64,000 nt of DNA, taken from Oscillospiraceae bacterium. GTDB lineage: Bacteria > Bacillota > Clostridia > Oscillospirales > Oscillospiraceae. The stretch spans positions 1,503 through 65,502 of the forward strand of contig CAJTEA010000002.1 of the NCBI GenBank assembly GCA_910575265.1, given 5' to 3'. Below, one piece after another: positions 1-20,180 of the stretch (position 1 is its first letter; the number at the start of each line of letters is the position of its first letter). The position numbers and the translations under genes are program-made. The notes beneath the pieces are model-generated. The model was given only the letters and a program-made list of their open reading frames with translations, was not told the DNA's origin and searched no databases.

Positions 1-2
1 TA

Positions 3-20
3 GGCCTTGTTTGAAAAATA
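3..20 (+). repeat. Terminal inverted repeat of the IS5-family element, left copy
   Basis: Reads GGCCTTGTTTGAAAAATA. Its reverse complement at 832-849 differs at one base. These are the transposase binding ends. Confidence 0.88.
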
Positions 21-32
21 GCGAGGAGTAGG

Positions 33-792: not shown

Positions 793-808
793 TCCTCTAT
801 TTTCGCAC

Positions 809-1048: not shown

Positions 1049-1280
1049 TGAGTTTTCCTCCCATCTGGCCTAGGGATAAGTCCCTATTTGTCGAGTTGTT
1101 TCCATGAAGAGTATAGCATAACAGCGCAATCAAATCAACCAGCCGAAGCGGAAACTTTTTCAGCCTCCTTTGCGGCCCGCTGTGCCCCCTCACCCGGTGC
1201 ATACGAGGCCCGTCCACTGAAAAAAGTAGTGGACGCAACCGCATGGCTGTGGTAGAATGAAGTGAAAGAAGGTGAGAACG

Positions 1281-2234
1281 GTGGACGGGGAAACAACAAT
1301 CGCCCAGGGGTTGCACGTCACTGATGACAGTGCGGGCTATGATGCCGCCTGCAAGCGTGTCCTGTCTGAAAAGGCAATCCTGGCGCGGATTATGAAGTCC
1401 TGCCTGGAAGAATACAAAGAGTGCGATGTCAACGACATTGCCGAAAAGTACATAGAGGGCCACCCCCAGGTGTCCGCCGTCCCGGTGCTGCCGGACGAGG
1501 GCGGTACAGTCATCAATGGCATGGACACCGAGGACAAATCGGTACATGAGGGGACAGTCACCTATGACATTCGCTTCCGGGCCATCGCCCCCGGCTCCGA
1601 GGAACGGATTGCTCTCATCATCAACGTGGAAGCGCAGAACGATTTTTACCCCGGCTATCCACTGATAAAGCGGGGCATATACTATTGTTGCCGGATGATT
1701 TCTTCCCAGTATGGTCGGGAGTTCACTGGCCCCCACTATGAGAAAATCAAGAAGGTTTACTCCATCTGGATTTGTATGAAACCTCCGCAGTATCGGGAGA
1801 ACACCATCACCCGGTATCGGCTGGTGGAGGAACATTTGGTAGGTGAGGGCAAAGAACCCGTCAGGAATTATGATTTGCTGTCCATCATCATGCTGTGCCT
1901 TGGCGGGCCGGATGGGGAAAACTATGACGGCGTACTTCGGATGCTGGATGTGCTTCTCTCCAACGAAACCAGCGAGGCGGAGAAGCGGAAGATTTTGCAG
2001 GACGATTACGACATTCAAATGACGCAGACAATGGAAAGGGAGGTGTCGGTCATGTGCAATCTGAGCAAGGGCGTTAGGGAAAAAGGTCGGGCAGAAGGTC
2101 ACGCAGAGCGAGCGTTGTCCGATCTCCGCAACCTCATGGAAACATTGGGCCTGACGATTGAACAGGCTATGGCGGCGCTGAAAGTCCCAGAGGGTGAACG
2201 GCAGAAGTATATGGATTTGCTGGAACGGCAGTAG
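1281..2234 (+). CDS. Rpn-family PD-(D/E)XK nuclease / putative transposase
   Basis: A 317-residue protein of the Rpn/YhgA-like recombination-promoting nuclease family, usually annotated as PD-(D/E)XK nuclease family transposase. The central region has a predicted beta-strand with an acidic-glutamine signature (IINVEAQNDFYPGYPL), typical of the catalytic core. The C-terminal third is helical and charged (KGVREKGRAEGHAERA), as in family members. The GTG at 1281 is preferred because AGAAGG lies 7 bases upstream; an in-frame GTG at 1272 lies within that ribosome site. These genes are frequent cargo in Clostridia mobile regions. The gene ends against a convergent terminator shared with the recombinase. 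Confidence 0.8.
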   Translation: MDGETTIAQGLHVTDDSAGYDAACKRVLSEKAILARIMKSCLEEYKECDVNDIAEKYIEGHPQVSAVPVLPDEGGTVINGMDTEDKSVHEGTVTYDIRFRAIAPGSEERIALIINVEAQNDFYPGYPLIKRGIYYCCRMISSQYGREFTGPHYEKIKKVYSIWICMKPPQYRENTITRYRLVEEHLVGEGKEPVRNYDLLSIIMLCLGGPDGENYDGVLRMLDVLLSNETSEAEKRKILQDDYDIQMTQTMEREVSVMCNLSKGVREKGRAEGHAERALSDLRNLMETLGLTIEQAMAALKVPEGERQKYMDLLERQ

Positions 2235-2238
2235 CAAT

Positions 2239-2275
2239 GAAAACGCCACGGACTATTATTGTCCCTGGCGTTTTC
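2239..2275. terminator. Bidirectional intrinsic terminator between convergent genes
   Basis: Stem GAAAACGCC / GGCGTTTTC with an inner GGAC / GTCC extension. A run of T follows on the plus strand and A-rich sequence precedes it, so it can serve both the Rpn gene and the recombinase gene (stop at 2288). Confidence 0.75.
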
Positions 2276-2287
2276 TCTGCATCTGCG

Positions 2288-4654: not shown

Positions 4655-4699
4655 GTGTGTAACCTCCTGTTTTGTATTTTCACGACCTTTCTATCCTTA

Positions 4700-5233
4700 T
4701 TATAGTGACCCTTTCGGGTCTGTGACAACATAGCTGCTGTGCATTTGCATAAGCGACGGTTTGACGAAAAACCTTGTCTTGCCGCTGCCGGAACCGCCGA
4801 TCACCAGCACATTCTTGTTCCGGGCGGTCTTGGGGTCTTTGGGCCTGCCGTTCATCGTCAGCCGTTCGGTCTGCGTGAGCAGGATGTTGCTTTCAAATAC
4901 GGGGTCGATGTAGGGCGCTATGTCCTTGGCGTTTCCAAATCGGGCGCTGCCGTACTCCATGCCGTGGCGGTATTTCTTGGCGTTTTTGCCCTTCATGTAG
5001 ACCGCCAGCCGCACCAGGGCCGCGCCCACCACGCCGATGCACAGGTCAAAGGGGTGGAAGCTGGGCAGGCCGTTGGCGAACGCCGCCGCCAGGCTGTCCA
5101 TGAAGTGGAGCATCTTTTGTGAGGCGTCTGCCCCCGCCGCCAGCCGCCATGCCTCGCCCATCTTGCCGAACAGCCACACGAACAGCAGATAGGGCAGGTT
5201 GGTGATTATCAGCTTTTTCAGGTCAGGCTTCAC
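4700..5233 (-). pseudogene. VirD4/TraG-type coupling protein, 5' fragment
   Basis: N-terminal 177 residues of a type IV coupling protein that would normally be roughly 600 residues and would couple relaxosome DNA to the conjugation pore. Two hydrophobic segments near the N-terminus are followed by GMEYGSARFG and the Walker A loop GGSGSGKT (about residue 146). The frame stops right after the conserved VTDPKG motif, where the neighbouring serine-recombinase element begins. The Walker B part is absent from the window, so the remainder was lost or lies left of base 1. The start overlaps the end of pcfB by 4 bases (ATGA), the usual order in these elements. Confidence 0.85.
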
Positions 5234-5700
5234 AGTTCAATCCCCCTTTCCCTGATTTTCTCCTTGGCCCGCTGGACATTCCGGCCAGCCGCTTCCCGCA
5301 AGACAGACAGCGCCTTGCGGATGGAGGGCTTGGCCTCCTGCGACAGCTTCTTGGCGGTGAACTCCTTGAAAGCCTGTTCCAGATTGTCCGCGTCCCGGCT
5401 CTTGAAAATGACGATGTAGTGGGGCGGCTGGGTGGTCTTGTCCTTTCGCAAGGTGAAGTCCACGCCGTATTTCTTGGCGCAGGGCTTGAAAGCGGCGATA
5501 TTGGCGTCCGTGATCTCAATGTTGGACAGCGCCGCCCCGTGCTGCTTCAACTGCTTTAGGCTCTGCTGGCCGTGGTGGAGCTTGGGGCCGTGCTTCCGGG
5601 CCTCCAAATACTTTTTCAAGGCCATTTGCAGCACTTGGGCCGTCAGTTTCCCGGTTTTCATAGACAATGCGATAGTTTTTTGAGTGACTTCCTCCTGCAA
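5230..5700 (-). CDS. PcfB-like conjugation protein (DUF3801)
   Basis: 156-residue protein of the PcfB/DUF3801 family, an accessory conjugation factor encoded directly before the VirD4-like coupling protein in Firmicutes integrative and conjugative elements. Family hallmarks are the N-terminal stretch TIALSMKTGKLTAQVL, the block IEITDANIAAFKPCAKKYGVDF, and the basic C-terminal helix. PcfB of pCF10-type systems is thought to link the relaxase complex to the coupling protein. It overlaps the coupling-protein start by 4 bases, implying translational coupling. It appears intact, although the next gene in the operon is broken. Confidence 0.85.
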   Translation of the reverse strand: MQEEVTQKTIALSMKTGKLTAQVLQMALKKYLEARKHGPKLHHGQQSLKQLKQHGAALSNIEITDANIAAFKPCAKKYGVDFTLRKDKTTQPPHYIVIFKSRDADNLEQAFKEFTAKKLSQEAKPSIRKALSVLREAAGRNVQRAKEKIRERGIEL

Positions 5701-5775
5701 GCGTCATACCTCCTTTGCCAGAAGTCGGAAAGGGCGGCTACGGTGGAACCACCAGCCGCCGCAGATAGATACGCC

Positions 5776-5988
5776 TCAAATCCTCACCCGCAGGCCGTTC
5801 AGGTCGTCGGCCTGGATGCCCACCAAATACCAGTCGGCGGCGTACTCAATCCGGGTGGGCCTCCACCTGCCGCCCACCAATACGTCGAAGCACTGTCCAC
5901 ACTGCAAGCCGCCGTAGTAGTCGGCCAGGTCAAAGCGGATGTCGTAGCGATCTGTCCGCTCATCGAAGATCAATGCGCCCTGTTTCAT
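5776..5988 (-). CDS. DUF5348 small protein of conjugative elements
   Basis: 70-residue acidic protein with the DUF5348 pattern (RYDIRFDLADYYGGLQCGQCFDVL, then RWRPTRIEY). Function is unknown. It is found almost only between the replication initiator and pcfB of Clostridia conjugative elements, as here. Possible translational start at 5988 with a purine-rich stretch upstream. Confidence 0.75.
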   Translation of the reverse strand: MKQGALIFDERTDRYDIRFDLADYYGGLQCGQCFDVLVGGRWRPTRIEYAADWYLVGIQADDLNGLRVRI

Positions 5989-6009
5989 AGTCGGGGCCTC
6001 CTTGTCAGA

Positions 6010-6888
6010 TTAGATTTTTCCCTCCGCCATATCGTGGGCGACGAGGGCGGTATAGTAGCTTCCCATGGTGCTGGGGGCGTTGAACAGCACCGCCAGCAGG
6101 TATTTCTTGATGTTGCGGATTTTCGTGGTGTTCTCCCGCATACAGTCCATGACGAACTCAATGTGGCCGCTGTTGAGTTTCAGCAGCTTGGCCTTTACCA
6201 GCTCGGCGGGGTAGTCATCACCGGCCACCCGGATAGACTTGCGGGCCGTGCAGACGGTTTCCACCAACAATTCCACGATGCCGTCCAATTCCTCCGGGTC
6301 GATTTTGGAGTGGTGCAGGAGATGGTCGTACTCGATATTCTCCTTGATGATGTCCCGATAAATCTCAACGGCGCTCTGTGTAGCCGCTTCCGTTCCGTTC
6401 CTTTCCGGCGGCGAAGCCGCAACAGCCCCAGCGGGAGGGGGCGAAAGGGAGGGAAGGGAATGGGTAATTGATGGGTCAGTAATAGCTTGGTCTTTAGTTA
6501 CTCTATCTTTATTTATTTGCGTTGGATTTTCCGACGGCGGTTTTTCCGTTGTCGGGTTTTCCGACGACGGTTTATCCAACGACGGCGGCAAAGAAATGGG
6601 CTGTTCGTGGATGATGTACTCGTTGCTGCTGAACTTGCCGCCCTCGTCCGTGGTCTGGTGGCGCTCGATGTACCCGGCCCGCTCCAATTCGTTGACGGCG
6701 GAACGAATAGCGTCCTTGCTCTCCCGGTTGATATAGCACAGGCCGGACAAGGTATAATCCCAATCTTCCGGGAGTGACAAAATCTGCGACAGCAGGCCCT
6801 TGGCTTTCAGGGACAGGGACTTGTCCCGCAGGTGATGGTTCGACATCACCGTGTACCCCTTGTTCCTCTCCACGCGGAATACTGGCAT
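6010..6888 (-). CDS. Replication initiator-like helix-turn-helix protein (RepA N-terminal type, DUF6017)
   Basis: 292-residue protein. The N-terminal 100 residues form the winged helix-turn-helix found in RepA_N/DnaD-like initiators of Firmicutes plasmids and conjugative elements (MPVFRVERNKGYTVMSNHHL, then LSLKAKGLLSQILSLPEDWD). A Pro/Ser/Thr-rich linker (about residues 105-160) follows. The C-terminal part resembles DUF6017 (HSKIDPEELDGIVELLVETV; NIKKYLLAVLFNAP). It probably binds an origin in the element. An upstream in-frame ATG (6918) exists, but AAGGAG sits 9 bases before the ATG at 6888, which matches family members. Confidence 0.85.
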   Translation of the reverse strand: MPVFRVERNKGYTVMSNHHLRDKSLSLKAKGLLSQILSLPEDWDYTLSGLCYINRESKDAIRSAVNELERAGYIERHQTTDEGGKFSSNEYIIHEQPISLPPSLDKPSSENPTTEKPPSENPTQINKDRVTKDQAITDPSITHSLPSLSPPPAGAVAASPPERNGTEAATQSAVEIYRDIIKENIEYDHLLHHSKIDPEELDGIVELLVETVCTARKSIRVAGDDYPAELVKAKLLKLNSGHIEFVMDCMRENTTKIRNIKKYLLAVLFNAPSTMGSYYTALVAHDMAEGKI

Positions 6889-6969
6889 GGTTCTCTGCTC
6901 CTTTCGGTGTCTGGACATGAAAAAACGCCGCAGATTTTGGAAACCTACGGCGCAGAAAATCCCCCACTT

Positions 6970-7014
6970 AAAAACGCCATATCAAGGCTTGTCCAACCTT
7001 GCTACGGCGTTTTT
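6970..7014. terminator. Strong inverted repeat near the right end of the conjugative element
   Basis: AAAAACGCC at 6970-6978 pairs with GGCGTTTTT at 7006-7014, with an inner CAAGG / CCTTG stem. It resembles an intrinsic terminator on either strand and lies upstream of the initiator gene, about 80 bases before the junction with the collagen-like fragment. It could insulate the element from neighbouring transcription. Confidence 0.6.
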
Positions 7015-7086
7015 GGTGTAATTATAGGGGCTGTTTAATTGTCTTTAAGATGTGTGAAATTCGCATGATTTCAGGGATTACCCTTG

Positions 7087-7103
7087 TTGTGCATATATTG
7101 ACG
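7087..7103 (+). other. Candidate right end (attachment half-site) of the integrated element
   Basis: The 17 bases TTGTGCATATATTGACG match 13 of 17 positions of TTGCGCATAAACCGACG at 18733-18749, the right end of the recombinase-only element. In both places the GACG is the first base group of a Gly-X-Y coding frame. This suggests that a related recombinase placed both elements in collagen-like genes. The left end of this element would lie outside the window. Confidence 0.45.
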
Positions 7104-7729
7104 GCTCTACTGGCGCCACCGGCGCCGCCGGCGCTCAGGGCCCCACCGGTCCTGCCGGCGCTACTGGCGCCACAGGCGCCACCGGCGCTCAGGGTCCCGC
7201 CGGTCCCATTGGTCCTACCGGTCCCACCGGCGCTACGGGTGCCACCGGCGCCACCGGCGCTCAGGGTCCCGCCGGTCCCATTGGTCCTACCGGTCCCACC
7301 GGCGCTACGGGTGCCACCGGCGCCCAGGGCCCCACCGGCCCTGCCGGCGCTACTGGCGCCACCGGCGCCACCGGCGCTCAGGGTCCCGCCGGTCCCATTG
7401 GTCCTACCGGTCCCACCGGCGCTACGGGTGCCACCGGCGCCGCCGGCACCCAGGGCCCCACCGGCCCTGCCGGCGCTACTGGCGCCACCGGCGCTCAGGG
7501 TCCCGCCGGTCCCATTGGTCCTACCGGTCCCACCGGCGCTACGGGTGCCACCGGCGCCGCCGGCGCTCAGGGCCCCACCGGCCCTGCCGGCGCTACTGGC
7601 GCCACCGGCGCCACCGGCGCTCAGGGACCCGCTGGTCCTGTTGGCCCCACCGATCCTGTACTATATGCGCAACCCGGCCCTGCTGGGCCGGGTTACTTTG
7701 CGTCCGCCGGTCTGTCGTACCGGCTGTAA
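7100..7729 (+). pseudogene. Collagen-like (Gly-X-Y) repeat protein fragment lacking its start
   Basis: From 7103 to 7651 the frame reads uninterrupted Gly-X-Y triplets ([23 protein letters not shown] type, Thr/Ala/Pro-rich, as in BclA-like spore-surface proteins). No ATG, GTG or TTG precedes the repeats in this frame; the frame is closed by TGA at 7055. The head was therefore removed when the element to the left integrated. The tail after 7651 ([11 protein letters not shown], stop at 7727) lacks the usual C-terminal domain and runs into the LysR gene's end, so the 3' end seems lost too. Repeat blocks recur at 72, 117, 117 and 126 bases, all multiples of nine. Confidence 0.8.
7187..7650 (+). 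repeat. Higher-order tandem repeats in the collagen-like region
   Basis: A block beginning GCTCAGGG starts at 7187, 7259, 7376, 7493 and 7619 and is nearly identical over about 65 bases in the first four copies. Spacing is always a multiple of 9 bases, keeping the triplet frame, which points to copy-number change by slippage or recombination. Confidence 0.8.
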
Positions 7730-8631
7730 AATTCACGGATCCGGTCAATAAAGGTTCTCGCGGCGGGAGAGAGAAAACCGTTTTTCTTATAGACCACCAC
7801 CAGCGGACAGGTCAGCGGCGGCTCTCCCACCGTAAAGCAGGCCAGCCGGTCCAGATATGGAGTACGGGGAACGCCGCTCTCCTGCAAAAAGGCAAACCCC
7901 ATCTTCTCCGCCGCCAGGTTGATGGCGGTGGTGGTATTGGTGGTGACCAGGATGTTCTGAGGCTCCACGCTGTGGACGGAGAAGGTGTTGTAAAGCAGCC
8001 TGGACAGCCGCCACTCAGGAGGCAGCATGATAACCCGCTCATGTTCCAGCAGGCGCAGATCCGGAAATGGTCTGGGGGCATCATAGGTGCTGTCCAGCCC
8101 CTGAAGCAGAGGGTGATCCCGATGGCCCACCAGAAAAACACGCTCCCGCATCACCGGCTCATAGGTCAGTTCGGTCAGGTCAGCGGGGGTCTGCATCACG
8201 CAGAAATCAATCACATTGGCCGCCGCCAGCTCTCCCAGCTCGGGCACTGGGGCCTCATGGAGGACCACCTGGACATCAGGGTACTGCTCCGCGAACAGGG
8301 GCAGAATGTCGGGCACCAGGTTGGATCCCCGCCAGGGGGACACTCCGATGTGGAGCACTGGCCGCTTTTTGTCCTGGAGGTCCCGCAGGTCGCTGACCAG
8401 CTGACGGTCCAAAAAGCCTTGCCGCTCCAAATAAGCGTGGAACAGCTCCCCCGCCGGCGTCAGCTTCAGCGGAGAGTGGGAGCGGTCCAGCAGGATCACC
8501 CCAAGGCTCCCCTCCAGCTTGGCCAAATACTGGCTCAGGTAGGGCTGGGACAGGTAGAGCCGCTCCGCCGCCTTGGAGATGCTCCGCTCCTTGACGATGG
8601 TAAGGAAATACTCCGGATTTTTGACGAACAT
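7693..8631 (-). CDS. LysR-family transcriptional regulator
   Basis: 312-residue LysR-type regulator. The N-terminal winged helix-turn-helix (residues 1-60, [36 protein letters not shown]) is followed by a periplasmic-binding-like effector domain (about 90-300). The target and ligand cannot be told from sequence. It starts 7 bases after the stop of the HIT gene and has no good ribosome site of its own, suggesting translational coupling. A 10 bp perfect stem (7671-7694) overlaps its stop codon but lacks a clear T run. Confidence 0.88.
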
Positions 8632-8638
8632 GGCCGCG

Positions 8639-8977
8639 TCAGCCCGGAGGCCAGGTCATGTCCCGGCCCGCCAGGACGTGGAAGTGGAGGTGAGGCACGC
8701 TCTGCCCCGCCTGGACCCCGATGTTGGACACCACCCGGTAGCTGTCCAGCCCCAGCTTCTTCGTCTGCCGGGCAATCACCTCAAAAATGTGGGCCACCAC
8801 CGCAGCGTTGTCTCCGTCCACCTCGGCCACCGAGCCGATGTGGGCTTTGGGGATGACCAGGAAATGGGTGGGAGCCTGGGGGTCGATGTCGTAGAAGGCC
8901 AGGCACAGCTCGTCCTCATAGACCTTGTTGGACGGAATCTCCCCGGCGATGATCTTGCAGAATAAACAGTCGGACAT
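8639..8977 (-). CDS. HIT-family nucleotide hydrolase (HINT-like)
   Basis: 112-residue histidine-triad protein. The signature HLHFHV near residue 98 provides the nucleophilic histidine for nucleoside phosphoramidate hydrolysis, and the N-terminal CLFCKIIAGEIPSNKVYEDE is typical of bacterial HinT. The start at 8977 is set by AAAGGAGG seven bases upstream. It is first in a two-gene unit with the LysR gene. A promoter (9044-9071) and a hairpin with T run (9003-9025) lie in its leader, so expression may be attenuated. Confidence 0.9.
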   Translation of the reverse strand: MSDCLFCKIIAGEIPSNKVYEDELCLAFYDIDPQAPTHFLVIPKAHIGSVAEVDGDNAAVVAHIFEVIARQTKKLGLDSYRVVSNIGVQAGQSVPHLHFHVLAGRDMTWPPG

Positions 8978-9002
8978 GGGAAAACCTCCTTTGTAATAAA
9001 AA

Positions 9003-9025
9003 GAGCCCCGCCGCAGGCGGGACCC
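9003..9025 (-). terminator. Terminator-like hairpin in the HIT gene leader
   Basis: On the minus strand GGGTCCCGCC pairs with GGCGGGGCTC across a 3-base loop (10 bp including two G-T pairs) and is followed directly by TTTTTATT. It lies between the promoter and the ribosome site of the HIT gene, which is the position of a transcription attenuator. No antiterminator or T-box motif was found. Confidence 0.6.
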
Positions 9026-9043
9026 TTTCCTTGCGGTAATTCC

Positions 9044-9071
9044 ATTGTACCCGATTTTCCCAGGATTGCAA
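9044..9071 (-). promoter_or_regulatory. Sigma-A-type promoter of the HIT-LysR unit
   Basis: Minus strand TTGCAA (9066-9071), 16 bases, TACAAT (9044-9049). The inferred transcript begins about 60 bases before the HIT start codon. Confidence 0.65.
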
Positions 9072-9112
9072 GAACTACTTTTCCAGTCTATCGCGCATCC
9101 TGTCGAATATTG

Positions 9113-9190
9113 GTATAATGACTGTGCTGCCCCTCCCCAGACTGGCAACAGGAAGGGGGTGAGTGAATGGAATTCTACTCAATTTCTTAG
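9113..9190 (+). other. Orphan start region: TATAAT, ribosome site and 7-codon frame
   Basis: A TATAAT at 9113-9118 is followed by GGAAGGGGGTGAGTGA and ATG at 9167, but the frame ends after seven codons (MEFYSIS, TAG at 9188-9190). This looks like the surviving head of a deleted gene or a leader peptide. Nothing else recognisable lies between here and 9310. Confidence 0.3.
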
Positions 9191-9310
9191 CTGAGGTCAC
9201 TATACCACAGCCGCTCTAGTATATGTAAGAGGGGATTTACTGGATCGGTGGCAACATGTGTTCAACGCGCAAAAAGCGGATTATCCGGTAATTCAAATAA
9301 AGTGCTCAGC

Positions 9311-10123
9311 CTATATCACAAACTCCAGGTTCCCGGCGGAGCCCGCGGCAATGCTGTATTTCGCGAAGCATACGATGACCTTGCCATCCTCCCGGACATA
9401 AAAGCTGGTGTTTTCGTCCACGGTTGTAAAGCCGCCTTGATCGGGCGGGAAAAATTCAGTGATACCATCTGTTCCCACGCCATCGGCAATCTGTTTTTGA
9501 ATGGCGGCATTACAAATCGCTACCCAATCGTCTCCTAAAAGGTCCTGAAGCGTAAGCTCCCGATTTTCAGCAAAATCCAGATTATAGTAATAGCGTTCTT
9601 CATAGGAGGACACCCAGCCCTCCGCGAAGGATACCACAAAGGATACTCGATTTTCTGTCTGGCTTTTTATTTCATAGCTGATGATAACATCCATTTCACG
9701 GTTGCCCCACTCATCCTCGGTGCCGCCAGTAGCGAAAAAGGCTTCCCGATAGTCATCCCAATCACGCTGTGCTTTGGCAAGGTGCTGGTCAGTTTTTTCC
9801 TGGATAGCAACATTGATTTTTTCCGCCAGAGCTCCCGTCGCCTCCACTCTGGGGGCAGAAACGCTATAGTCAATGCCATCCTCCGATTCGTAGTATTCCT
9901 CAAAGGCCAGCACTTGGAACAGCTTGTCCAGAACTGGCACGCCAGCGGCGGCGCAGGAGATCACCATCAGCGCGGCGGCGATGGCGACAACGGTCAATTT
10001 TTTCAGCTTTTTCACAGGGAAAACCTTCCTTTCCGTTCGGAGAAGGCGGTCCAGCCCGGCCTGTTCCTGCTCCGGGGTGGGAGCAAGCGCGTCAAACATG
10101 CGGTTTAAATCACGTGGTTCCAT
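9311..10123 (-). CDS. RsiV-like anti-sigma factor (DUF3298)
   Basis: 270-residue membrane protein encoded right after an ECF sigma factor and overlapping it by 14 bases. A cytoplasmic N-terminus of about 40 residues (MEPRDLNRMFDALAPTPEQE) would bind the sigma factor. One transmembrane segment (about 43-62, LTVVAIAAALMVISCAAAG) follows, then an extracellular region matching DUF4163/DUF3298, as in RsiV (FVVSFAEGWVSSYEERYYYNLD; NRELTLQDLLGDDW). In Bacillus and Clostridioides RsiV releases sigma-V when lysozyme binds. Whether this paralogue senses lysozyme is not shown by the sequence. Confidence 0.82.
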   Translation of the reverse strand: MEPRDLNRMFDALAPTPEQEQAGLDRLLRTERKVFPVKKLKKLTVVAIAAALMVISCAAAGVPVLDKLFQVLAFEEYYESEDGIDYSVSAPRVEATGALAEKINVAIQEKTDQHLAKAQRDWDDYREAFFATGGTEDEWGNREMDVIISYEIKSQTENRVSFVVSFAEGWVSSYEERYYYNLDFAENRELTLQDLLGDDWVAICNAAIQKQIADGVGTDGITEFFPPDQGGFTTVDENTSFYVREDGKVIVCFAKYSIAAGSAGNLEFVI

Positions 10124-10601
10124 AGCCCTCCGCCTCCAATCGTAATTTCAGCTTTTTTCTTGCCTGGACCAGCCGGGAGCGCACAGTGGAGGGGTTGTCC
10201 CCCAGCACGCGGGCAATCTCGTCGGTGGTGTAGCCCTGGTAGTAGTGGAGAAACAGCACCAGCCGGTGCTTGTCCGGCAGCGCGGCCACCTGCTCCCAGA
10301 CCAGACCGTCCGACCGCTCCTCCCAGACCAGGGTATCCAGGGCGGAAGCGTCCTCCCGGCACCTGCGCCACCAGTGCTTGAGCTGATCCCGGCACTCGTT
10401 CCGGGCGGTGACGATCAGCCAGGCCTTCTCATGCTCCGGATCACGGAAAGGTCCACCCCGCTCCATCACCTTGCGAAAGACAGTCTGGGCGGCATCCTCG
10501 GCGTCGGGCGCGTTCTTCATCAGTACCAGGCAAATTTGATACACCAGCTTGAAATTCCGCCGGTAAATGACCTCAATCTCTTCCCGATTGCTCGCTCCCA
10601 T
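10110..10601 (-). CDS. ECF RNA polymerase sigma factor (SigV-type partner)
   Basis: 163-residue extracytoplasmic-function sigma factor. Region 2 includes VYQICLVLMKNAPDAEDAAQTVFRKVM; region 4 includes LFLHYYQGYTTDEIARVLGDNPSTVRSRL with a helix-turn-helix. The start at 10601 is preferred because AAAGGAGG lies 10 bases upstream. A longer frame reaches 10718 but has no start signals and includes the preceding terminator. The stop overlaps the anti-sigma gene, implying coupled translation and stoichiometric control. Confidence 0.88.
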   Translation of the reverse strand: MGASNREEIEVIYRRNFKLVYQICLVLMKNAPDAEDAAQTVFRKVMERGGPFRDPEHEKAWLIVTARNECRDQLKHWWRRCREDASALDTLVWEERSDGLVWEQVAALPDKHRLVLFLHYYQGYTTDEIARVLGDNPSTVRSRLVQARKKLKLRLEAEGYGTT

Positions 10602-10683
10602 CCGACCGCCGCCTCCTTTCTGTCCTTCTGCCTGATACACGATTGGGGAACGGATTTTGTTGAGATCCTTCCAAAAAATTTTT

Positions 10684-10711
10684 AACCGGCTGACCCTCCG
10701 GCCAGCCGGTT
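10684..10711. terminator. Bidirectional intrinsic terminator
   Basis: AACCGGCTG (10684-10692) pairs with CAGCCGGTT (10703-10711). T runs flank it in both directions. It ends the alaS operon after the DUF4272 gene. Confidence 0.8.
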
Positions 10712-10717
10712 TTTTCA

Positions 10718-11980
10718 TTAAGTAGATAAATCCACATCGTCCCAGCCGCGCATCCCGTCACAGCCCGCCAGCCAAAACAGAGCCCGGTGGCGCTCCATGA
10801 CCACGCCCTCCTCCAGCTCCTGGGGGGCGGGCATATTCATCACCCGGGCGTCCACGCAGACCCAGTGGATACGGTAGATCAGGTCGGCCTGGTCCAGCAG
10901 CTCTTTCCGGGGGCGCGGTCTGGCCGCCGCCGCCAGCTCCGCCATGGAGGGGTACTCCCGCATCATTCGGACGGACTGGGGCACGTCACAGATACGGGTG
11001 GGCCAGAACAGGTCGTCGGTGAGGCCCAGGGCCCACTCCATCACCCACAGATTCTCATACTGCCAGGCGTACTGGATCTGGGTTTTCTCGTCGGAGTTGG
11101 GGTCGTTCAGATACGCCCACTCCTCGGGGGAGAAGAAGGATTCCTCCGCTCCGTAGCTCTCAATGATGGGGTCCACAAATTCCCGGGCCTTCTCATAGGA
11201 CAGGTGATCCCCTACCCGGCACTCGGAGTACAGCGACACAATCAGCAGGGCCGCCGCCCGGCGGCAGACCTCCTCCACGGTACGGCCCGGTTCCTCCGCC
11301 CGCTCGTGGAGCAGGGGCAGCCAGGGGGTGACATAGATGCGCTTCTCCCGCAGCAGCGTCATGGACTTGTCCCGCCGCTTCACACTCTCCGCCGGCGCGT
11401 CCTTGGCCCAGTCCTCCGGGACAGGGCGCTCGGCGGGCAGATACCAGTCCAGTTCGGATTTGCCCTCTTTATTCAGGATGACCTGCCCCCGGCTGTTTTG
11501 CAGGCTCATACCATCCCCAAAGGTAATCACCCCCTGGAGCTGCTCCGTGATGTCGAAAAGGGGGGCCTTGACCTGTTTTTCCTTCTCCGCTGTCTCCGCC
11601 GGACTGGCGCTGTCGAAGGAATAGACAATTTGAATCAGGCTCTTGCACTGGCGCAGATGGTAGAACAGATTGCGCTTGATCTCCAGCTGTTCAGTCTGGT
11701 TCTGGTAGACGTATCCGGCCACCCCCTGGAGCTGCTCCTTGGCGTACTGGCCGTTCTCTCCCTCCTCGTCGGGGGAGGCGGACAGGAGGATGATCTCCAT
11801 ATCGTCCTGACACAGGGTGATATGGTTCCGGTCGCCTACCGTCTCAATCTGGAACAGCTCCCCAATCCGGTCCAGCGCTTTTTTCGGATCGGGCTCCGGG
11901 CAGAACAGCATCGCCGCCCCCTTCACCCGCCGGGGACCCTGGGGCTCCTTGGGTTTCTTGAACTTGTCGAACAGTCCCAT
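10718..11980 (-). CDS. DUF4272 domain-containing protein
   Basis: 420-residue soluble protein of unknown function with the DUF4272 pattern: a C-terminal half rich in Trp and acidic residues (SFFSPEEWAYLNDPNSDE, QYAWQYENLWVMEWALGL, DLIYRIHWVCVDAR). The N-terminal half carries GLFDKFKKPKEPQ and a mixed alpha/beta region. A longer open frame extends to 12088, but AAGGAGG precedes the ATG at 11980. It is the last gene of the alaS operon, 14 bases after the DUF4250 gene, so it is probably co-transcribed with tRNA-charging functions by position rather than role. Confidence 0.78.
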   Translation of the reverse strand: MGLFDKFKKPKEPQGPRRVKGAAMLFCPEPDPKKALDRIGELFQIETVGDRNHITLCQDDMEIILLSASPDEEGENGQYAKEQLQGVAGYVYQNQTEQLEIKRNLFYHLRQCKSLIQIVYSFDSASPAETAEKEKQVKAPLFDITEQLQGVITFGDGMSLQNSRGQVILNKEGKSELDWYLPAERPVPEDWAKDAPAESVKRRDKSMTLLREKRIYVTPWLPLLHERAEEPGRTVEEVCRRAAALLIVSLYSECRVGDHLSYEKAREFVDPIIESYGAEESFFSPEEWAYLNDPNSDEKTQIQYAWQYENLWVMEWALGLTDDLFWPTRICDVPQSVRMMREYPSMAELAAAARPRPRKELLDQADLIYRIHWVCVDARVMNMPAPQELEEGVVMERHRALFWLAGCDGMRGWDDVDLST

Positions 11981-11994
11981 ATGGCGTCTCCTCC

Positions 11995-12168
11995 TTACAG
12001 AAAACGGTTTTTGTCCTCGTCGTAGGTATAGCCCACAGCCTCCAGCCCGCGGACAAGCTCCTCCCGGTCCGCGTCCAGGGCGGCGCACAGCTCGTCCAGA
12101 CTGGGATACTCGTCCCGCAGCTTGGTGTTCACATAGCTGAGTAAAATAATCGGATCCTGGGGAAGCAT
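11995..12168 (-). CDS. DUF4250 small protein
   Basis: A 57-residue protein that begins MLPQDPIILLSYVNTKLRDE and ends YDEDKNRFL. It matches the DUF4250 family: a conserved MLP.DP..LLS.VN.KLRD head, a Leu-rich middle and a helix-turn-helix-like GYTYDE tail. Function is unknown. The start at 12168 has AGGAGG 7 bases upstream. It sits between the unknown gene at 12181 and the DUF4272 gene, all tightly spaced on the minus strand. Confidence 0.85.
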   Translation of the reverse strand: MLPQDPIILLSYVNTKLRDEYPSLDELCAALDADREELVRGLEAVGYTYDEDKNRFL

Positions 12169-12180
12169 GGGAAAACCTCC

Positions 12181-12720
12181 TTACTGGGGCCGCTCCAGGC
12201 CCAGCACATCGTAATATTCGTCGGAGAAGCGCAGCACCGAAGGGTCGAAGCTGGCCTGGAGAGCTTTTACTTTCTCAAAGGGGTCGGCGGGGGCCAGGTC
12301 AAACTCCCGTGCGATGGCAGACAGGGCAGCATTCTTTCGGGTGAAATACTCCTCACAGCCGGGCCAGGTTCGTTCAGCATCTTCCCGGAGCAGCTGACGA
12401 AACCTCGCCTCGTCCATCCACCAGATTTGGGAGAGGGGGTTGGCGTCCCGGCAGAAGACGACAAAGGAGAGAAATTCTCGGAAGTCCCCGGCCGCAGGAA
12501 GGACAAACTTTCCCTCCTCCCCCATAGCCGGGTCCACACAGAACACCCGCTCGTCCCCAGGCAGGAGAATGAAGTGGACCCCGTCACAGCCGATGGCCCC
12601 CACCGGCTCCGCATCTATAGGAGTACAGAAGTAATCGCAGAACTGGCCGCCCCACTCCAGGCCAATGGCGGAAAAATCAATGTCCAGCGCCTGGAAGCGT
12701 TTTAAATCATCTCTGGTCAT
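12181..12720 (-). CDS. Conserved hypothetical protein, possibly SMI1/KNR4-like
   Basis: 179-residue acidic soluble protein not confidently recognised. The middle (GCDGVHFILLPGDERVFCVDPAMG, then FREFLSFVVFCRDANPLSQIWW) is reminiscent of the SUKH (SMI1/KNR4) fold, where a Gly-rich strand pair is followed by an F..FL helix, but key motifs are not clear enough to call. The start is 3 bases after the alaS stop, so it is translationally linked to alaS. Confidence 0.6.
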   Translation of the reverse strand: MTRDDLKRFQALDIDFSAIGLEWGGQFCDYFCTPIDAEPVGAIGCDGVHFILLPGDERVFCVDPAMGEEGKFVLPAAGDFREFLSFVVFCRDANPLSQIWWMDEARFRQLLREDAERTWPGCEEYFTRKNAALSAIAREFDLAPADPFEKVKALQASFDPSVLRFSDEYYDVLGLERPQ

Positions 12721-12723
12721 GGC

Positions 12724-15408
<2,685 letters not shown>

Positions 15409-15458
15409 AGTGATTACCTCCGTTTTATTGTGATTTGGCGGACGGCCAACGGCCGCCC

Positions 15459-15884
15459 TTACTGTATTTTGACCTGGATGCCCATCAGCTCCATATCGGT
15501 GCTGTAGGCGACGCGGTAGATCACGGATTTTTTCTCGTGCTTACAGTAGAGCACCGCTGTGCCGTACTCCTCGCCGGTGTCCTTCAGGGCCTGGCCGGTA
15601 GCCATGGCTTCGTCTTCCTTTTGATAGGCCCCGGCCTTGGACAGGTGCTCCTCCATATAGGACCGGATGGCCTCCGGGCTGGAGGTCTCCCGGGCGTCGG
15701 ACCGGAGGAGGTCGTAGACCTCCCGCCACTCCCCGGCGTTGAGCATAGCGACCACCTCCCTCCCCTGTTCCAGAACAGCGTCCTCCTCCATTCCCTCGGG
15801 CAGAGGATGGCCGGATACCTTACAGCCAGCCAGCAAAAGCAGCGCCGACAGCACAGTCAGTGCCAGGACAAGCTTTTTCCTCAC
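15459..15884 (-). CDS. DUF3887-like lipoprotein
   Basis: 141 residues. A lipoprotein signal peptide ends at the lipobox LAGC (Cys20). The mature part looks like the DUF3887 / nuclear-transport-factor-like fold (VVAMLNAGEWREVYDLLRSDAR) with alternating strands after it. Role unknown; likely tethered to the outer face of the membrane. It overlaps the phzF stop by 4 bases (ATGA) and precedes alaS by 50 bases, a stretch that contains only a GC-rich inverted repeat. Confidence 0.75.
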   Translation of the reverse strand: MRKKLVLALTVLSALLLLAGCKVSGHPLPEGMEEDAVLEQGREVVAMLNAGEWREVYDLLRSDARETSSPEAIRSYMEEHLSKAGAYQKEDEAMATGQALKDTGEEYGTAVLYCKHEKKSVIYRVAYSTDMELMGIQVKIQ

Positions 15885-16669
15885 GGCATATCCTCCACCA
15901 TCAGCTCAGACCGGGCGTACAGAACCGCTTTTCCCGCTATCTTTACTCGGTCTCCCTCCAGACGGCAATACAGAGTGCCGCCCCGGACGGAGACCTGCCG
16001 GGCCACAAACTCCGTCTTTCCGGTTCGCGCCGCCCAATAGGGGATAATGTGACAGTGGCCCGACCCGCACACCGGATCCTCCGGAACCCCCGCCTTTGGC
16101 GCGAAGGAGCGGGATACGCAGTCAAACCCGTCCATGCCGGGGGCGGTCACCTGACACAGCGCCCCCCTGAGTCCCTTCAGCTTCTCCATATCAGGTTTCA
16201 TCTCTAAAATATCCTCCGCCCGGTCAAAGACGCACAGCAAATCCCGGGCCCGCCAGACCTCTTTGGGCCGAACTCTCAGGGCGTCGGCAATCTGCTCTGT
16301 CACCTCCAGGGGCTCTAGGGTATAGGCGGGAAAATCCATCTCATACAGTTCTCCCCGGCGCTTCACGGTCAGCGTTCCGCCAAGCGTTTCAAAACGAATG
16401 TTCTCCCCGCCGGGCTGGATAAACCGGTCAATCACATAGGCCGTAGCCAGGGTGGCGTGTCCACATAAATCAACTTCCCCTCCAGGCGTAAACCACCGCA
16501 GCCTCCAGCCCTCCCCCTCCGGATGGGCAAAGGCTGTTTCCGACAGGTTGTTTTCCCGCGTGATCGCGGCCATCAGCTCGTCCCGGATTGGACGCTCCGC
16601 CACGATCACCGCCGCCGGGTTGCCCTCGAAAACACGGTCAGCAAAGGCGTCCACCACATATTGCTTCAT
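15881..16669 (-). CDS. PhzF-family isomerase/epimerase
   Basis: 262 residues, the usual PhzF length. Hallmarks are the catalytic Glu region NNLSETAFAHPE, GGEVDLCGHATLATAYV, and the C-terminal mirror motif EDPVCGSGHCHIIPYW. The family has a diaminopimelate-epimerase-like fold and carries out isomerisations; the substrate here is unknown and phenazine synthesis is not implied. The start at 16669 follows AAAGGAG; a longer frame to 16741 runs into the T-box terminator and is not credible. First gene after the Ala T-box. Confidence 0.9.
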   Translation of the reverse strand: MKQYVVDAFADRVFEGNPAAVIVAERPIRDELMAAITRENNLSETAFAHPEGEGWRLRWFTPGGEVDLCGHATLATAYVIDRFIQPGGENIRFETLGGTLTVKRRGELYEMDFPAYTLEPLEVTEQIADALRVRPKEVWRARDLLCVFDRAEDILEMKPDMEKLKGLRGALCQVTAPGMDGFDCVSRSFAPKAGVPEDPVCGSGHCHIIPYWAARTGKTEFVARQVSVRGGTLYCRLEGDRVKIAGKAVLYARSELMVEDMP

Positions 16670-16690
16670 CAAACAGTTTCTCCTTTCCAC

Positions 16691-16916
16691 AAAAAACCGC
16701 CCCTGACCATATGTCAGGGGCGGAAATTTCCACGGTACCACCCTGATTATCCCCGTAAACGGGGCGTCTCAAGCTGTCCGGTCACGGGGACAGGCCGTCC
16801 CGGTCGTCCCGGGCCGCTCGGGAGTGGCTGGCACAGCCGGCTTGGCCGAGGGCTTCCACCATCCCCTCTCGCTCGCGGCCGCGGCGCTTGTGCTTGGCTC
16901 CGTCATCACATTTTAC
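16691..16916 (-). promoter_or_regulatory. T-box leader, probably tRNA-Ala specific
   Basis: On the minus strand the leader contains the T-box sequence AGGGTGGTACCGTGG (16730-16744) and, 6 bases downstream, a terminator stem CCGCCCCTGAC / GTCAGGGGCGG (16697-16723) followed by TTTTTT. Upstream lies a long stem I region with GGATGGTGGAAGCC, and a candidate specifier GCC followed by A (within CCAGCCACTCCC), an alanine codon. alaS two genes downstream supports this assignment. Uncharged tRNA-Ala would stabilise the antiterminator and allow transcription of phzF, the lipoprotein gene, alaS and the following genes. Confidence 0.9.
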
Positions 16917-16922
16917 CGGGTT

Positions 16923-16950
16923 ATTGTATCATATTTTCCCGGCTTGTCAA
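16923..16950 (-). promoter_or_regulatory. Sigma-A promoter of the T-box/alaS operon
   Basis: Minus strand TTGACA (16945-16950), 16 bases, TACAAT (16923-16928). Transcription would begin near 16916, at the 5' end of the T-box leader. Confidence 0.85.
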
Positions 16951-17034
16951 CCGGTTTTCTGAAAATATCTGCCCAAACATGTCCCGTGATACCTCCCTGC
17001 CCCGGCGCATAAACATCAGATGGAGGTGACTTAC

Positions 17035-17094
17035 ATGATAAACCAGTCTACTTGTGTCGTTCAGGGCGGCAGTAAAACCGCCTGTCCAAGCTGA
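17035..17094 (+). pseudogene. Collagen-like protein, separated N-terminal piece
   Basis: ATG at 17035 sits behind a very strong ribosome site (GGAGGTGA, 5 bases away) but the frame ends after 19 residues (MINQSTCVVQGGSKTACPS, TGA 17092-17094). Right at that stop lies the 7-base repeat GACGCGC that recurs where the Gly-X-Y frame resumes at 18746. I read this as the head of the collagen-like gene whose body is at 18746-19009, interrupted by the recombinase element. The A4 run at 17074-17077 may hide a one-base shift: with three A the head would join the collagen frame without a stop. Confidence 0.6.
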
Positions 17095-17099
17095 CGCGC
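17093..17099 (+). repeat. Direct repeat / candidate attachment core, left copy
   Basis: GACGCGC, identical to 18746-18752. It includes a GA dinucleotide, which is the crossover core of TnpX/TndX-type recombinases in the literature. Confidence 0.5.
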
Positions 17100-18745
17100 G
17101 GAATGGCAAGAATCCGGAAACCGCACGAAAGCCAGACCGCCCCCCAGCAAACCGTCTGGAAGGTGGGAAAGTACATCCGCCTCTCCCGGGATGACGGAGC
17201 TGCCGTCTCTGAGTCGGTGGTCAATCAGGATAAAATCTTACAGGATGAACTCTCCGGTTTTTTTGAAGACGGCCTGTATGAGGTTGTGGACACCTATATC
17301 GACGACGGGACCAGCGGCACAACCGACCTGGAGCGGCAGGACTTTCAGCGGATGGTCCAGGACGTGAAGCGCGGGCGGATCAACTGCGTCATCGTAAAGA
17401 ACCTGTCCCGGGCTTTCCGCAACAGCGCGAATCAGGGGCGCTTTCTGGAGGAGTTCATCCCCCTCTACAACACCCGCTTCATCTCTCTGTACCAGCCAAG
17501 GCTCGACACCTTTCTGGACCCGGAAATCGTGCACAGCCTGGAGGTCAGCATCACCGGCTTTTTAAACGAACAGTACGCCTACAAGACCTCTGTGGATGTG
17601 CGCCGCACCTTTCAGCACAAGCGGGAACGGGGCGAGTTTATCGGGGCCTTCGCCCCCTACGGCTACCGCAAGGACCCTGAAAACAAAAACGCCCTGCTCA
17701 TCGACGAGGAGGCCGCGCGGACCGTTCGGGACATGTTTGGCTGGTTCGTTCTGGAGGGGATGAGCAAGGCGGGAATCGCGAAACGCCTCAACGGGTATGG
17801 AATCCCCAATCCGGCGGCCTACAAGCGCGCCAAGGGCCTGCGCTATGAAAATCCCCATTGCAGGCACAATGATGGCCTGTGGTCGCCCTCCACTGTCTCG
17901 CGTATGCTCCAGGACCCTCTATATATCGGAGTCCTGCGCCAGGGGCGGCAGAAGGTCATCAGCTATAAGATCCACAGACGGATCTCTGTACCGGAACAGA
18001 ACTGGTTTGTGGTGGAGAACGCCGTACCCGCCATTATTGACCGGGAGACCTTCCAGGCGGCGCAAGCCCTGCACCAGAGGGACACCCGTGCCGCGCCGGG
18101 CAAAGGGGAGGTGTATCTCTTTTCCGGCCTTCTCCGCTGCGCCGGCTGCGGAAAAAGCATGGCGCGCCACACGGCCAAAGGGCTCGTATACTACCAGTGC
18201 AGGACCCGCCGGGATAAATCCAAAACCAGCTGCGCCAAACACAGCATCCGGCTGGACGCGGTGGAGGAAACGGTTTTGGCCGCGATCCAACGTCAGATCG
18301 ACCTTGTGGGTTCTCTTGACCAGCTTATCGGCGAGCTCAACCGCGCCCCCGCGCCTCCCTCCGAGACCCCGCGGCTGGCCACGCTGCTGGAGCGGAGGAG
18401 TTCGGAGCTGGAAAAAGCGGCGGATACCCTGGACGGCCTCTATGTGGATTGGAAAAACGGGGAAATCAGCCATGAGCAGTACCTCCGTATGAAGCTCAGG
18501 CTTGAGGAACAGTACCAACGGCTCCAGGAAACGATTGTCCGCGTCCAAAGCGAGTGTGACGCGGCCTCCCAGCCGTCTGGAGCTGTGCACCCAGACCTGG
18601 CCGCGTTTTTGACGCGCCGCAATATTACCGGCTTATCCCGCGGACTTCTGACCACGCTTGTCAAGGTGATCTTCGTCCATGAGGACAAAAGCATTGACAT
18701 CGAATTCAGCTTCGCGGACCCATGCCGTCCGGTTGCGCATAAACC
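17093..18745 (+). mobile_element. Recombinase-only element inserted in a collagen-like gene
   Basis: The interval between two copies of GACGCGC (17093-17099 and 18746-18752) is 1653 bases and holds almost nothing but one serine recombinase frame. The start codon is 3 bases after the left repeat. The frame has no stop inside the element and terminates only at TAG 18774-18776 in host sequence. There is no room for a promoter or ribosome site, so expression must come from the host gene. 1653 is a multiple of three, so a circle closed at the repeat would be one endless frame. Boundaries are inferred from the repeat and the split frames. Confidence 0.65.
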
Positions 18746-18776
18746 GACGCGCCCACCGGGCCTACCGGCCCCGTAG
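17103..18776 (+). CDS. Large serine recombinase without its own stop codon or ribosome site
   Basis: 557 residues. Catalytic domain about residues 20-170 with nucleophile Ser28 in YIRLSRDD and the conserved NLSRAFRN segment; recombinase domain (AFAPYGYRKDPEN; LWSPSTVSRMLQDPLYIGVL); zinc ribbon (CAGCG, then C-X9-C in the CRTRRDKSKTSC stretch); coiled coil (about 430-480) and a DUF4368-like end (LVKVIFVHEDKSIDIEF). The final residues (THRPP-like Pro-rich end) are read from the collagen gene. No AGGAGG precedes the ATG; the stop of the collagen head ends 8 bases before it, so reinitiation is the likely translation route. It would excise or move the element. Homology is certain; the developmental role is inference. 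Confidence 0.9.
   Translation: MARIRKPHESQTAPQQTVWKVGKYIRLSRDDGAAVSESVVNQDKILQDELSGFFEDGLYEVVDTYIDDGTSGTTDLERQDFQRMVQDVKRGRINCVIVKNLSRAFRNSANQGRFLEEFIPLYNTRFISLYQPRLDTFLDPEIVHSLEVSITGFLNEQYAYKTSVDVRRTFQHKRERGEFIGAFAPYGYRKDPENKNALLIDEEAARTVRDMFGWFVLEGMSKAGIAKRLNGYGIPNPAAYKRAKGLRYENPHCRHNDGLWSPSTVSRMLQDPLYIGVLRQGRQKVISYKIHRRISVPEQNWFVVENAVPAIIDRETFQAAQALHQRDTRAAPGKGEVYLFSGLLRCAGCGKSMARHTAKGLVYYQCRTRRDKSKTSCAKHSIRLDAVEETVLAAIQRQIDLVGSLDQLIGELNRAPAPPSETPRLATLLERRSSELEKAADTLDGLYVDWKNGEISHEQYLRMKLRLEEQYQRLQETIVRVQSECDAASQPSGAVHPDLAAFLTRRNITGLSRGLLTTLVKVIFVHEDKSIDIEFSFADPCRPVAHKPTRPPGLPAP
18746..18752 (+). repeat. Direct repeat / candidate attachment core, right copy
   Basis: GACGCGC at the point where the Gly-X-Y frame resumes. 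It is preceded by TTGCGCATAAACC, similar to the sequence before the other collagen-like fragment at 7100. Confidence 0.5.
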
Positions 18777-19009
18777 GTCCCGCCGGCGCGGCTGGCGCTG
18801 AGGGCCCCACCGGGCCTGCCGGGCCTGCCGGCGCGGCTGGCGCCGCCGGCGCGGAGGGGCCCACCGGGCCCACGGGACCCGCCGGACCCGCCATCACTCC
18901 CGGCCCCGCTGTGGCCAATCTGGATGACGGCACCGGAACCCCGGAGACTGTTGACAAGATCAACGAGCTGCTGGCCTCTCTGAGAACCGCCGGCGTCATC
19001 GCAACCTGA
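18746..19009 (+). pseudogene. Collagen-like protein, body and C-terminus (interrupted gene)
   Basis: In the frame starting GAC at 18746 the sequence reads DAPTGPTGPVGPAGAAGAEG and further Gly-X-Y triplets up to about 18897, then a non-collagen tail ITPGPAVANLDDG and a helical end VDKINELLASLRTAGVIAT, stop TGA 19007. TAA lies directly upstream in frame (18740), so it cannot be translated on its own. The tail type (ITPGPAVANL) is common at the end of Clostridia collagen-like proteins. Rejoined to the head at 17035 it would give a compact protein of about 106 residues. A terminator follows at 19020. Confidence 0.8.
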
Positions 19010-19019
19010 TTTCAGCCTT

Positions 19020-19054
19020 CCGGCGCTCCCATCCGGGGGCGCCGGTCTTTTTTT
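19020..19054 (+). terminator. Intrinsic terminator after the collagen-like gene
   Basis: CCGGCGC pairs with GCGCCGG and is followed by TCTTTTTTTT. It lies between the collagen-like gene and the glycosyltransferase gene. Confidence 0.8.
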
Positions 19055-19067
19055 AAAGGAGACTTTT

Positions 19068-20180
19068 ATGGGAACGTACAATGTATGCGTCTACGCTATC
19101 TGCAAAAATGAGGCCCAGTTCGCGGACCGCTGGATGGACTCCATGTCCGAAGCGGACTACATTGTGGTACTGGACACCGGCTCAGAGGACGGGACGGCGG
19201 AACTCCTGCGGGCCCGGGGGGCGGAGGTGACGGTGGAGGCGATCTCCCCCTGGCGGTTTGACACCGCCCGCAACCGCTCTCTGGAGCTTGTGCCGGAGGA
19301 CGCGGACATCTGTGTCTGCACCGATCTGGACGAGGTCTTCCGCCCCGGCTGGCGCGAGGCTCTGGAACGGGCCTGGACTCCCGGAGCGGGTCAGGCCTCC
19401 TACCAGTATACCTGGTCCTTCAACGCCGACGGCTCGGAGGGGGTGGTGTTCTGGTATGAGAAAATCCACACCCGCCACGGCTACCAGTGGGTTCACCCGG
19501 TCCATGAGGTGCTGAAATGGGTGGGCGAGGGCAGCCCCGGCCCCATCGTGACGGCCGAGGGGGTCCGGCTGGACCACCACCCAGACCCCGCCAAATCCCG
19601 AGCCCAGTACCTGTCTTTGCTGGAGTTGTCCGTTCAGGAGGAACCGAACGATGACCGCAACGTCCACTACCTGGGGCGGGAGTACATGTACAGAGGCCGC
19701 TGGGACGACTGCGTCCGCACATTGAAAAAGCATCTGAACATGGCCACCGCCGTGTGGCGGGACGAGCGGGCGGCTTCCATGCGGTATATCGCCAGGGCCT
19801 GCTGGAACAAAGGGGACACGGCCCAGGCCAGGGACTGGTATCTCCGGGCCATCACCGAGGCCCCCCATCTGCGGGAGCCCTATATCGACCTGGCTGTCAT
19901 GCTCTACGCCCTGGAGGAGTGGGACGGCGTACTATACTTCACCTCCTGCGCCCTGTCCATCACCATCCGGCCCCGGAGCTACATCTGCGAGGCCGCCGCC
20001 TGGGGCAGCCTGCCTCACGACCTGCGGTCCATCGCTTTTTACCACACCGGAGCCTATTCGGAAGCCCTGGCGGAGGTCAAAAAGGCTTTGGAGCTGGAGC
20101 CGGAGAACCAGCGCCTCCAAGCCAACCTGGAACTGATGGAGCAGGCCGCGAACAGGTCACAATTTACAGAAAAGACATGA
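19068..20180 (+). CDS. Glycosyltransferase family 2 with TPR-like C-terminal region
   Basis: 370 residues. N-terminal GT-A fold: VCVYAICKNEAQFADRWMDS, then VVLDTGSEDGTAELL and the metal-binding acidic motif CTDLDEVF. A helical, TPR-like region (about 215-360; YLGREYMYRGRWDDCVRTL, YIARACWNKGDTAQARDWYLRAI, YSEALAEVKKALELEPEN) probably binds the acceptor. Genes of this type lie beside collagen-like/BclA genes and glycosylate the threonine-rich repeats on spores in other Firmicutes. The same is likely here, as it follows the collagen-like gene by 59 bases. AAAGGAG precedes the ATG. Confidence 0.85.
   Translation: MGTYNVCVYAICKNEAQFADRWMDSMSEADYIVVLDTGSEDGTAELLRARGAEVTVEAISPWRFDTARNRSLELVPEDADICVCTDLDEVFRPGWREALERAWTPGAGQASYQYTWSFNADGSEGVVFWYEKIHTRHGYQWVHPVHEVLKWVGEGSPGPIVTAEGVRLDHHPDPAKSRAQYLSLLELSVQEEPNDDRNVHYLGREYMYRGRWDDCVRTLKKHLNMATAVWRDERAASMRYIARACWNKGDTAQARDWYLRAITEAPHLREPYIDLAVMLYALEEWDGVLYFTSCALSITIRPRSYICEAAAWGSLPHDLRSIAFYHTGAYSEALAEVKKALELEPENQRLQANLELMEQAANRSQFTEKT

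Follow-up and report, generated by a model that had tools for sequence, protein, structure and literature searches.

In the sigK and spsM elements, DNA that bears a recombinase splits a host gene, the reading frame of which can be restored. Serine recombinases more generally can run in reverse when a directionality factor is present. The gin element, as described in the portion of the published account drawn on here, divides gerE of Bacillus cereus in a likewise restorable manner, and is the nearest regulated analogue that we found (PMC5595907). The nearest named kin of the integrases considered below are the large serine recombinases (LSRs) of the TndX/TnpX type, from conjugative and mobilisable elements, which have Resolvase, Recombinase and zinc-ribbon domains in common with recA, the recombinase that is our main subject. 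According to the sections used here of a catalogue of LSRs, DUF4368 is present in 63% of those of a multi-targeting clade, TndX-like ones included, and there are LSRs that disrupt a target gene family, with a 2-bp core that aligns across targets (PMC10083194).

The locus described here lies in a stretch of 64,000 nucleotides (the window) from a draft genome of an Oscillospiraceae bacterium (G000; 111 contigs, 3.6 Mb). Unlike gin, sigK and spsM, the element that carries recA has relatives that are ICE- or IME-like with varied cargo, and what it targets is a repeat that many genes contain. It differs from the TndX/TnpX type in that DUF4368 was not matched in recA at E<=0.1 and in that the recA family has a recurrent collagen-codon target. 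In contrast to the LSR catalogue, from the main text of which the word collagen is absent in the version consulted (PMC10083194), the recA family strikes many different genes because these share a repeat codon pair. Among the literature matches listed for collagen terms, titles and abstract openings contain no description of a collagen-codon target of serine integrases, and so far as searches of that kind reach, the target appears to be absent from print.

Results

A collagen-like gene in three pieces

The interrupted gene, which may or may not belong to sporulation, is collagen-like, with a match to Pfam Collagen. Two insertions, elements A and B, divide it, the order being 5' piece (on contig C17), element B, middle piece, element A and 3' piece (Table 1). 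The Gly-X-Y frame that reaches 19009 has no start of its own, as the preliminary description had noted. The true 5' part, beginning MRRYHTSDW..., lies on C17 of the same genome, beside a second recombinase gene, recB, toward which it reads; the 19-codon frame previously taken for the collagen 5' end thus loses that role. A collagen frame at 7058-7726, with one arm at each end, is the middle piece, for which reason our first view, that the window was an inversion splitting the gene between contigs, was dropped. Joining the three pieces at their AC cores gives a protein of 429 amino acids with 102 consecutive unbroken Gly-X-Y triplets.

The uninterrupted gene of relatives begins MxRYYASDWEQ... 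and lies upstream of the glycosyltransferase/TPR gene, a match to which was present in 55 of the 64 genus genomes searched, our own counted. Of the 20 loci that we compared, 6 gave a match to the antiporter upstream of the collagen gene (L051, L055, L063, L065, L066 and L067), and in one of these (L055) an insertion with another recombinase type is present; the collagen gene of G002 holds a recombinase of another type. The insertions in the present gene probably inactivate it.

Only the left portion of element B is in the window, and its other end, with recB and the right arm, is at G000:C17:2574-4317; we infer that the ends on contigs C17 and C2 belong together. Element B sits antisense to the collagen gene, its arms agree at 16 of 22 positions, and its left arm resembles the arm at the far end of three ICEs of named isolates. 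The recB product is 51% identical to that of recA, and a DUF6870 gene (Pfam) lies just upstream; similar small frames, judged by eye, precede other recombinases. Within element B, a 788-codon serine recombinase of DUF4368 type abuts the truncated T4SS coupling-protein gene as if inserted there (2291-4654, 4703-5161), and two adjacent frames at 36-792 are transposase-like, as named from their sequence.

Table 1. Coordinates of features in the window
Feature	Position	Strand	Basis or remark
Element B (ICE-type), left portion, continuing off the window	1..7086	.	Pfam: DUF6017, DUF3801, truncated T4SS coupling-protein gene beside another serine recombinase
Element B left arm, TTGTGCATATATTGACGGCTCT	7087..7108	+	followed by core AC, 7109-7110
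Middle piece of split collagen-like gene	7109..7650	+	in Gly-X-Y phase with the 5' piece on C17 and with 18755-19009
Element A, 11,104 bp	7651..18754	.	22-bp arms, each beside dinucleotide AC in the collagen-like gene
Element A left arm, TTGCGCATATAGTACAGGATCG on the - strand	7651..7672	-	core AC, 7649-7650
Chromosomal alaS locus	7696..16669	-	Pfam, NCBIfam; colinear with relatives such as G010
LysR	7696..8631	-	alaS locus
DUF3298	9314..10123	-	alaS locus
Sigma factor	10113..10718	-	alaS locus
DUF4272	10721..11980	-	alaS locus
alaS (alanyl-tRNA synthetase)	12724..15408	-	NCBIfam equivalog match
PhzF-like	15881..16669	-	alaS locus
19-codon frame with its own RBS	17035..17094	+	not the collagen 5' end
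Large serine recombinase recA, 557 codons + stop	17103..18776	+	Pfam, alignment; frame extends beyond the core and ends within collagen DNA
Element A right arm, TTGCGCATAAACCGACGCGCCC	18733..18754	+	arm rule
Core dinucleotide AC, common to a collagen Thr codon	18755..18756	+	arm rule, joined frame
3' piece of split collagen-like gene	18755..19009	+	Pfam Collagen match, AC join
Glycosyltransferase/TPR gene	19068..20180	+	conserved; follows the collagen gene

Element A and its recombinase

The arms of element A agree at only 12 of 22 positions. Judged from sequence only, its ends have the make-up of an attP, with two inverted arms and a 2-bp core shared with attB. The recA product matches the Resolvase N-terminal, Recombinase and zinc-ribbon domains above the Pfam curated cut-offs and keeps its catalytic serine, S28, which is invariant across nine aligned homologues and lies in a YIRLS motif that we take to be the catalytic serine motif of large serine recombinases. 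Against NCBIfam, only Ccr and XisF models were matched, all far under their cut-offs. Ten PDB sequence matches were headed by two YokA (SPbeta) chains, with TnpX and a putative conjugative-transposon recombinase behind them; among plasmid matches, TndX was 30.6% identical and the best (42.5%) was a 'recombinase family protein' from an Oscillospiraceae plasmid. The genome as a whole gave 65 serine recombinase matches, fragments included.

No relaxase or mobilisation gene was present among the nine open reading frames of element A that were run (five against Pfam, four against NCBIfam); the window part of element B has the T4SS coupling-protein fragment. Element A is without the small gene, promoter and ribosome-binding site (RBS) found ahead of related recombinases, the host alaS locus being there instead, and the likeness of the window to G051 ends at the ATG. 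Consistent with what had been reported earlier, there is no Shine-Dalgarno sequence ahead of 17103; of the 11 further recombinase loci displayed from the genus set, 9 have GGAGG before the start, L101 and L105 being the exceptions.

A stretch of ten bases, GCGCATAAAC, is common to the element A right arm and to 17005-17014, just ahead of the 19-codon frame, where no AC or GT core follows it at the expected distance. The leader at 16700-16950 was first guessed to be a T-box, a reading not backed by Rfam, none of whose models reached its gathering score within 16000-20000. An orphan DUF6870-like gene on C14, considered as the lost half of element A, has instead a downstream context of its own.

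An alanyl-tRNA synthetase locus within the element

The alaS gene of element A is the single match in the genome at E<=1e-100. In G010 the locus is placed between birA and cysS; on contig C13 of G000 these two genes have a spacing of 5.3 kb and no alaS between them. Nothing att-like is recognisable there as a donor scar, and in further relatives the locus is bordered by different genes, so that the recombinase may, at most, have moved it. About as probable as not, in our estimation, is that alaS entered element A after its insertion, by an unrelated chromosomal rearrangement in which the recombinase took no part. Such a rearrangement is in keeping with the missing scar and the varying neighbours, with the absence of the usual element DNA ahead of recA, and with the situation in G061, where chromosomal DNA likewise abuts an apparent decayed recombinase 3' end. 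It is harder to reconcile with the two arms, 11.1 kb apart, that flank the segment, the junctions of which both look like one integration event, and with the proximity of birA and cysS here when set against the position of the locus between them in G010.

A rule for the attachment sites

Inspection by eye of G019, G054, G051, the window and C17 gave the attachment rule; the first three of these are contained in the scan described below (L130, L134 and L129). An arm of 22 nucleotides, starting TTGYGCATA or similar, is followed by AC or GT and then by collagen DNA, AC facing the 3' piece in sense and GT facing the 5' piece in antisense. The attP accordingly comprises 46 bp, with two 22-bp arms in inverted orientation around a 2-bp core of AC or GT, and the target is ACN GGN, divided after AC, a Thr-Gly codon pair of Gly-X-Y repeats. 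Guesses of GC or CC as the core were superseded by this 22-nucleotide rule.

The genome scan for related recombinases yielded 75 loci. Gly-X-Y DNA (a run of at least 6) lies at most 500 bp away in 45/75 and within 250 bp past the recombinase stop in 42/74, compared with 2/73 for the 500 bp upstream, 32/884 for 500-bp windows elsewhere in these loci and 0/17 for less related recombinases of our own genome (L004-L020, being those of the 65 matches with loci that follow the three closest). A recognisable arm was present in 52 of the 75 loci, followed by AC in 34, GT in 11, CA in 3, AG in 3 and CT in 1. That 45/75 loci have an arm followed by AC or GT, and as many have Gly-X-Y DNA nearby, therefore argues for a family of integrases with collagen-like genes as a frequent landing place, although many loci are near-identical ICE copies, so that the locus counts are not independent and overstate the independence of the cases. 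A looser arm rule gave 54 loci with 36 distinct arms (by distinct arm, AC 22, GT 9, CA 3, CT 1 and AG 1) and left 21/75 without a recognisable arm.

A phase test, for which at least 5 of 7 Gly had to be in phase, was applied to the 54 loci with an arm and passed by 36: 22 with AC in sense, 5 with GT in antisense, 3 with GT in sense, 1 with AC in antisense, 3 with AG and 2 with CA. The 18 that missed it start, in about two thirds of cases, with Thr-Gly or at the end of a Gly-X-Y run and soon leave the repeat. There is no clear collagen target at L141, L159, L162, L163, L170 and L190, and that at L177 is doubtful. Within the genus set, collagen DNA directly follows the recombinase, by eye, in 10 of 12 loci (not L104 or L003), and L107 and L108 have a different arm sequence. 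At L152, after 6632, two element ends are only a few collagen codons apart, a nested insertion like that of the window.

Related elements in other genomes

Five further elements, from two relatives and three named isolates, have both ends resolved and leave a joined gene in Gly-X-Y phase over the junction; counting elements A and B, the frame is restored in all six joined collagen genes (seven elements). The G054 element (3,716 bp, AC core) carries a chemotaxis-receptor gene (Pfam) and the recombinase. That of G019 (L117; 14,796 bp, AC core) has phosphonate-type cargo, a PEP mutase/cytidylyltransferase and an aminotransferase (Pfam), together with a gene that, going by its sequence, is presumably flagellin-like. 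The elements of Hungatella hathewayi DSM 13479 (28.7 kb), Clostridium fessum (37.2 kb) and [Clostridium] citroniae (50.4 kb) have an identical left arm and interrupt three different collagen genes, which on joining give frames of 530, 316 and 867 residues, respectively. A relative at a collagen site in G006 (L120) has Relaxase and NikA/MobC.

By eye, the 3' collagen piece gains an in-frame ATG from the element end in G051, G054, G061 and G019 (L058, L052, L062 and L117), in the first three as TAA-ATG. G061 further has, in GT-forward orientation (L062, ~8650-8870), an apparent decayed recombinase 3' end, an arm, core AC and a collagen 3' piece; the truncated gene that abuts the decayed end is, we assume from its sequence, of MATE type.

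Discussion

Our reading, with a probability of about 0.88, is that recA encodes the integrase at the right end of the 11.1-kb element A, which lies in a collagen-like gene; that it belongs to a family with a 46-bp attP often found at the Thr-Gly target; and that elements A and B have cut one gene into three. What the sequences show directly is where the junctions lie, that the frame can be rejoined across them, and that the arrangement recurs in other species. Most likely, ICE/IME-type elements would be inserted by their integrase at a codon pair that is repeated many times in collagen genes. The recombinase probably catalysed these insertions, with AC the likely crossover dinucleotide. Orientation would be set by the core, such that a right arm with AC mostly meets the 3' piece and a right arm with GT mostly the 5' piece.

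A different role for the same arms would be that of a regulated switch, in which elements excise, or invert between their arms, and so restore the collagen protein. Both the restored frame in all six joined genes and the reversibility of serine recombinases would suit such a switch. Any element at a Thr-Gly codon pair, however, restores the frame on excision, so that restoration is not evidence of regulation. Moreover, elements A and B would both have to leave, and loss of the element A circle should be lethal because the only alaS match of the genome lies in it. We regard a switch as unlikely.

Far less probable still is the model of the preliminary description, a minimal recombinase element of 1,653 bp between GACGCGC repeats that is excised in development, with the transcript of the collagen gene itself yielding the recombinase that repairs this gene. 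Much of what it drew on is real: GGAGGTGA precedes the ATG at 17035, the 19-codon frame ends at TGA 17092-17094, GACGCGC occurs at 17093 and 18746 with a spacing of 1653, and the recombinase frame starting at 17103 stops at TAG 18774-18776 within Gly-X-Y DNA. The gin element, moreover, offers a precedent for gene repair by excision, as far as the part of that study consulted goes (PMC5595907). The repeat is nevertheless at chance level, since 271 of 2000 random pairs of 46 nucleotides share a word of at least 7, and GACGCGC, of which the + strand of the window has 11 copies, is not conserved in homologues; an exact crossover in it would leave a TGA, as was conceded at the time. The real ends are the 22-bp arms, at 7651 and 18754, so the element is not minimal, and the uninterrupted gene of relatives fits neither of the junctions first proposed. 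Homologues have larger boundaries too, with the start, usually an RBS and, at nearly every locus examined, the stop within element DNA. Both of these findings are outcomes that the preliminary description had itself named as refuting it.

The circuit of transcript and repair fails at this locus, where what lies upstream of the recombinase does not belong to the collagen gene. Nor is the 19-codon frame a collagen start: when 300 family genomes were searched at the DNA level for 16900-17110, 8 gave matches, our own and 7 others, the latter aligning within 16901-16977 only. That the recombinase has no stop of its own is correct for this locus, where the stop is in collagen DNA, but as a general trait it does not hold and is a local oddity: among the 52/75 related loci with a recognisable arm, an automated listing gave a stop beyond the core for L200 alone, an artefact, as its translation has an earlier stop, and L131, outside the 52, reads through into collagen DNA as the window does. 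What endures is the kernel of that account, namely that a serine-recombinase element splits a collagen-like gene, the frame of which exact recombination would restore.

That the collagen neighbourhood reflects chance or an assembly error, as a draft of 111 contigs might invite one to suppose, is refuted for the family, since junctions of this type are found again in named isolates and in many other assemblies, and is very improbable for the local case.

With the integrase reading, frequent landing sites of a widespread integrase family can be predicted by a compact rule, namely a 22-bp arm and a core of AC or GT at Thr-Gly codons, a rule that would account for broken collagen-like genes in several bacteria. 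It also provides naturally divergent attP/attB pairs, each of which can be checked by a simple plasmid assay. More tentatively, and on balance we doubt that the whole of it holds, the collagen-like genes of Clostridia may be shared landing pads for a serine-integrase family, in which a recombinase that keeps little but its arms can take up a chromosomal segment, here the sole alanyl-tRNA synthetase locus carried into a collagen gene, such that the host could no longer lose the element. An essential gene caught in this way between attachment sites that look functional would plainly make the host dependent on an element.
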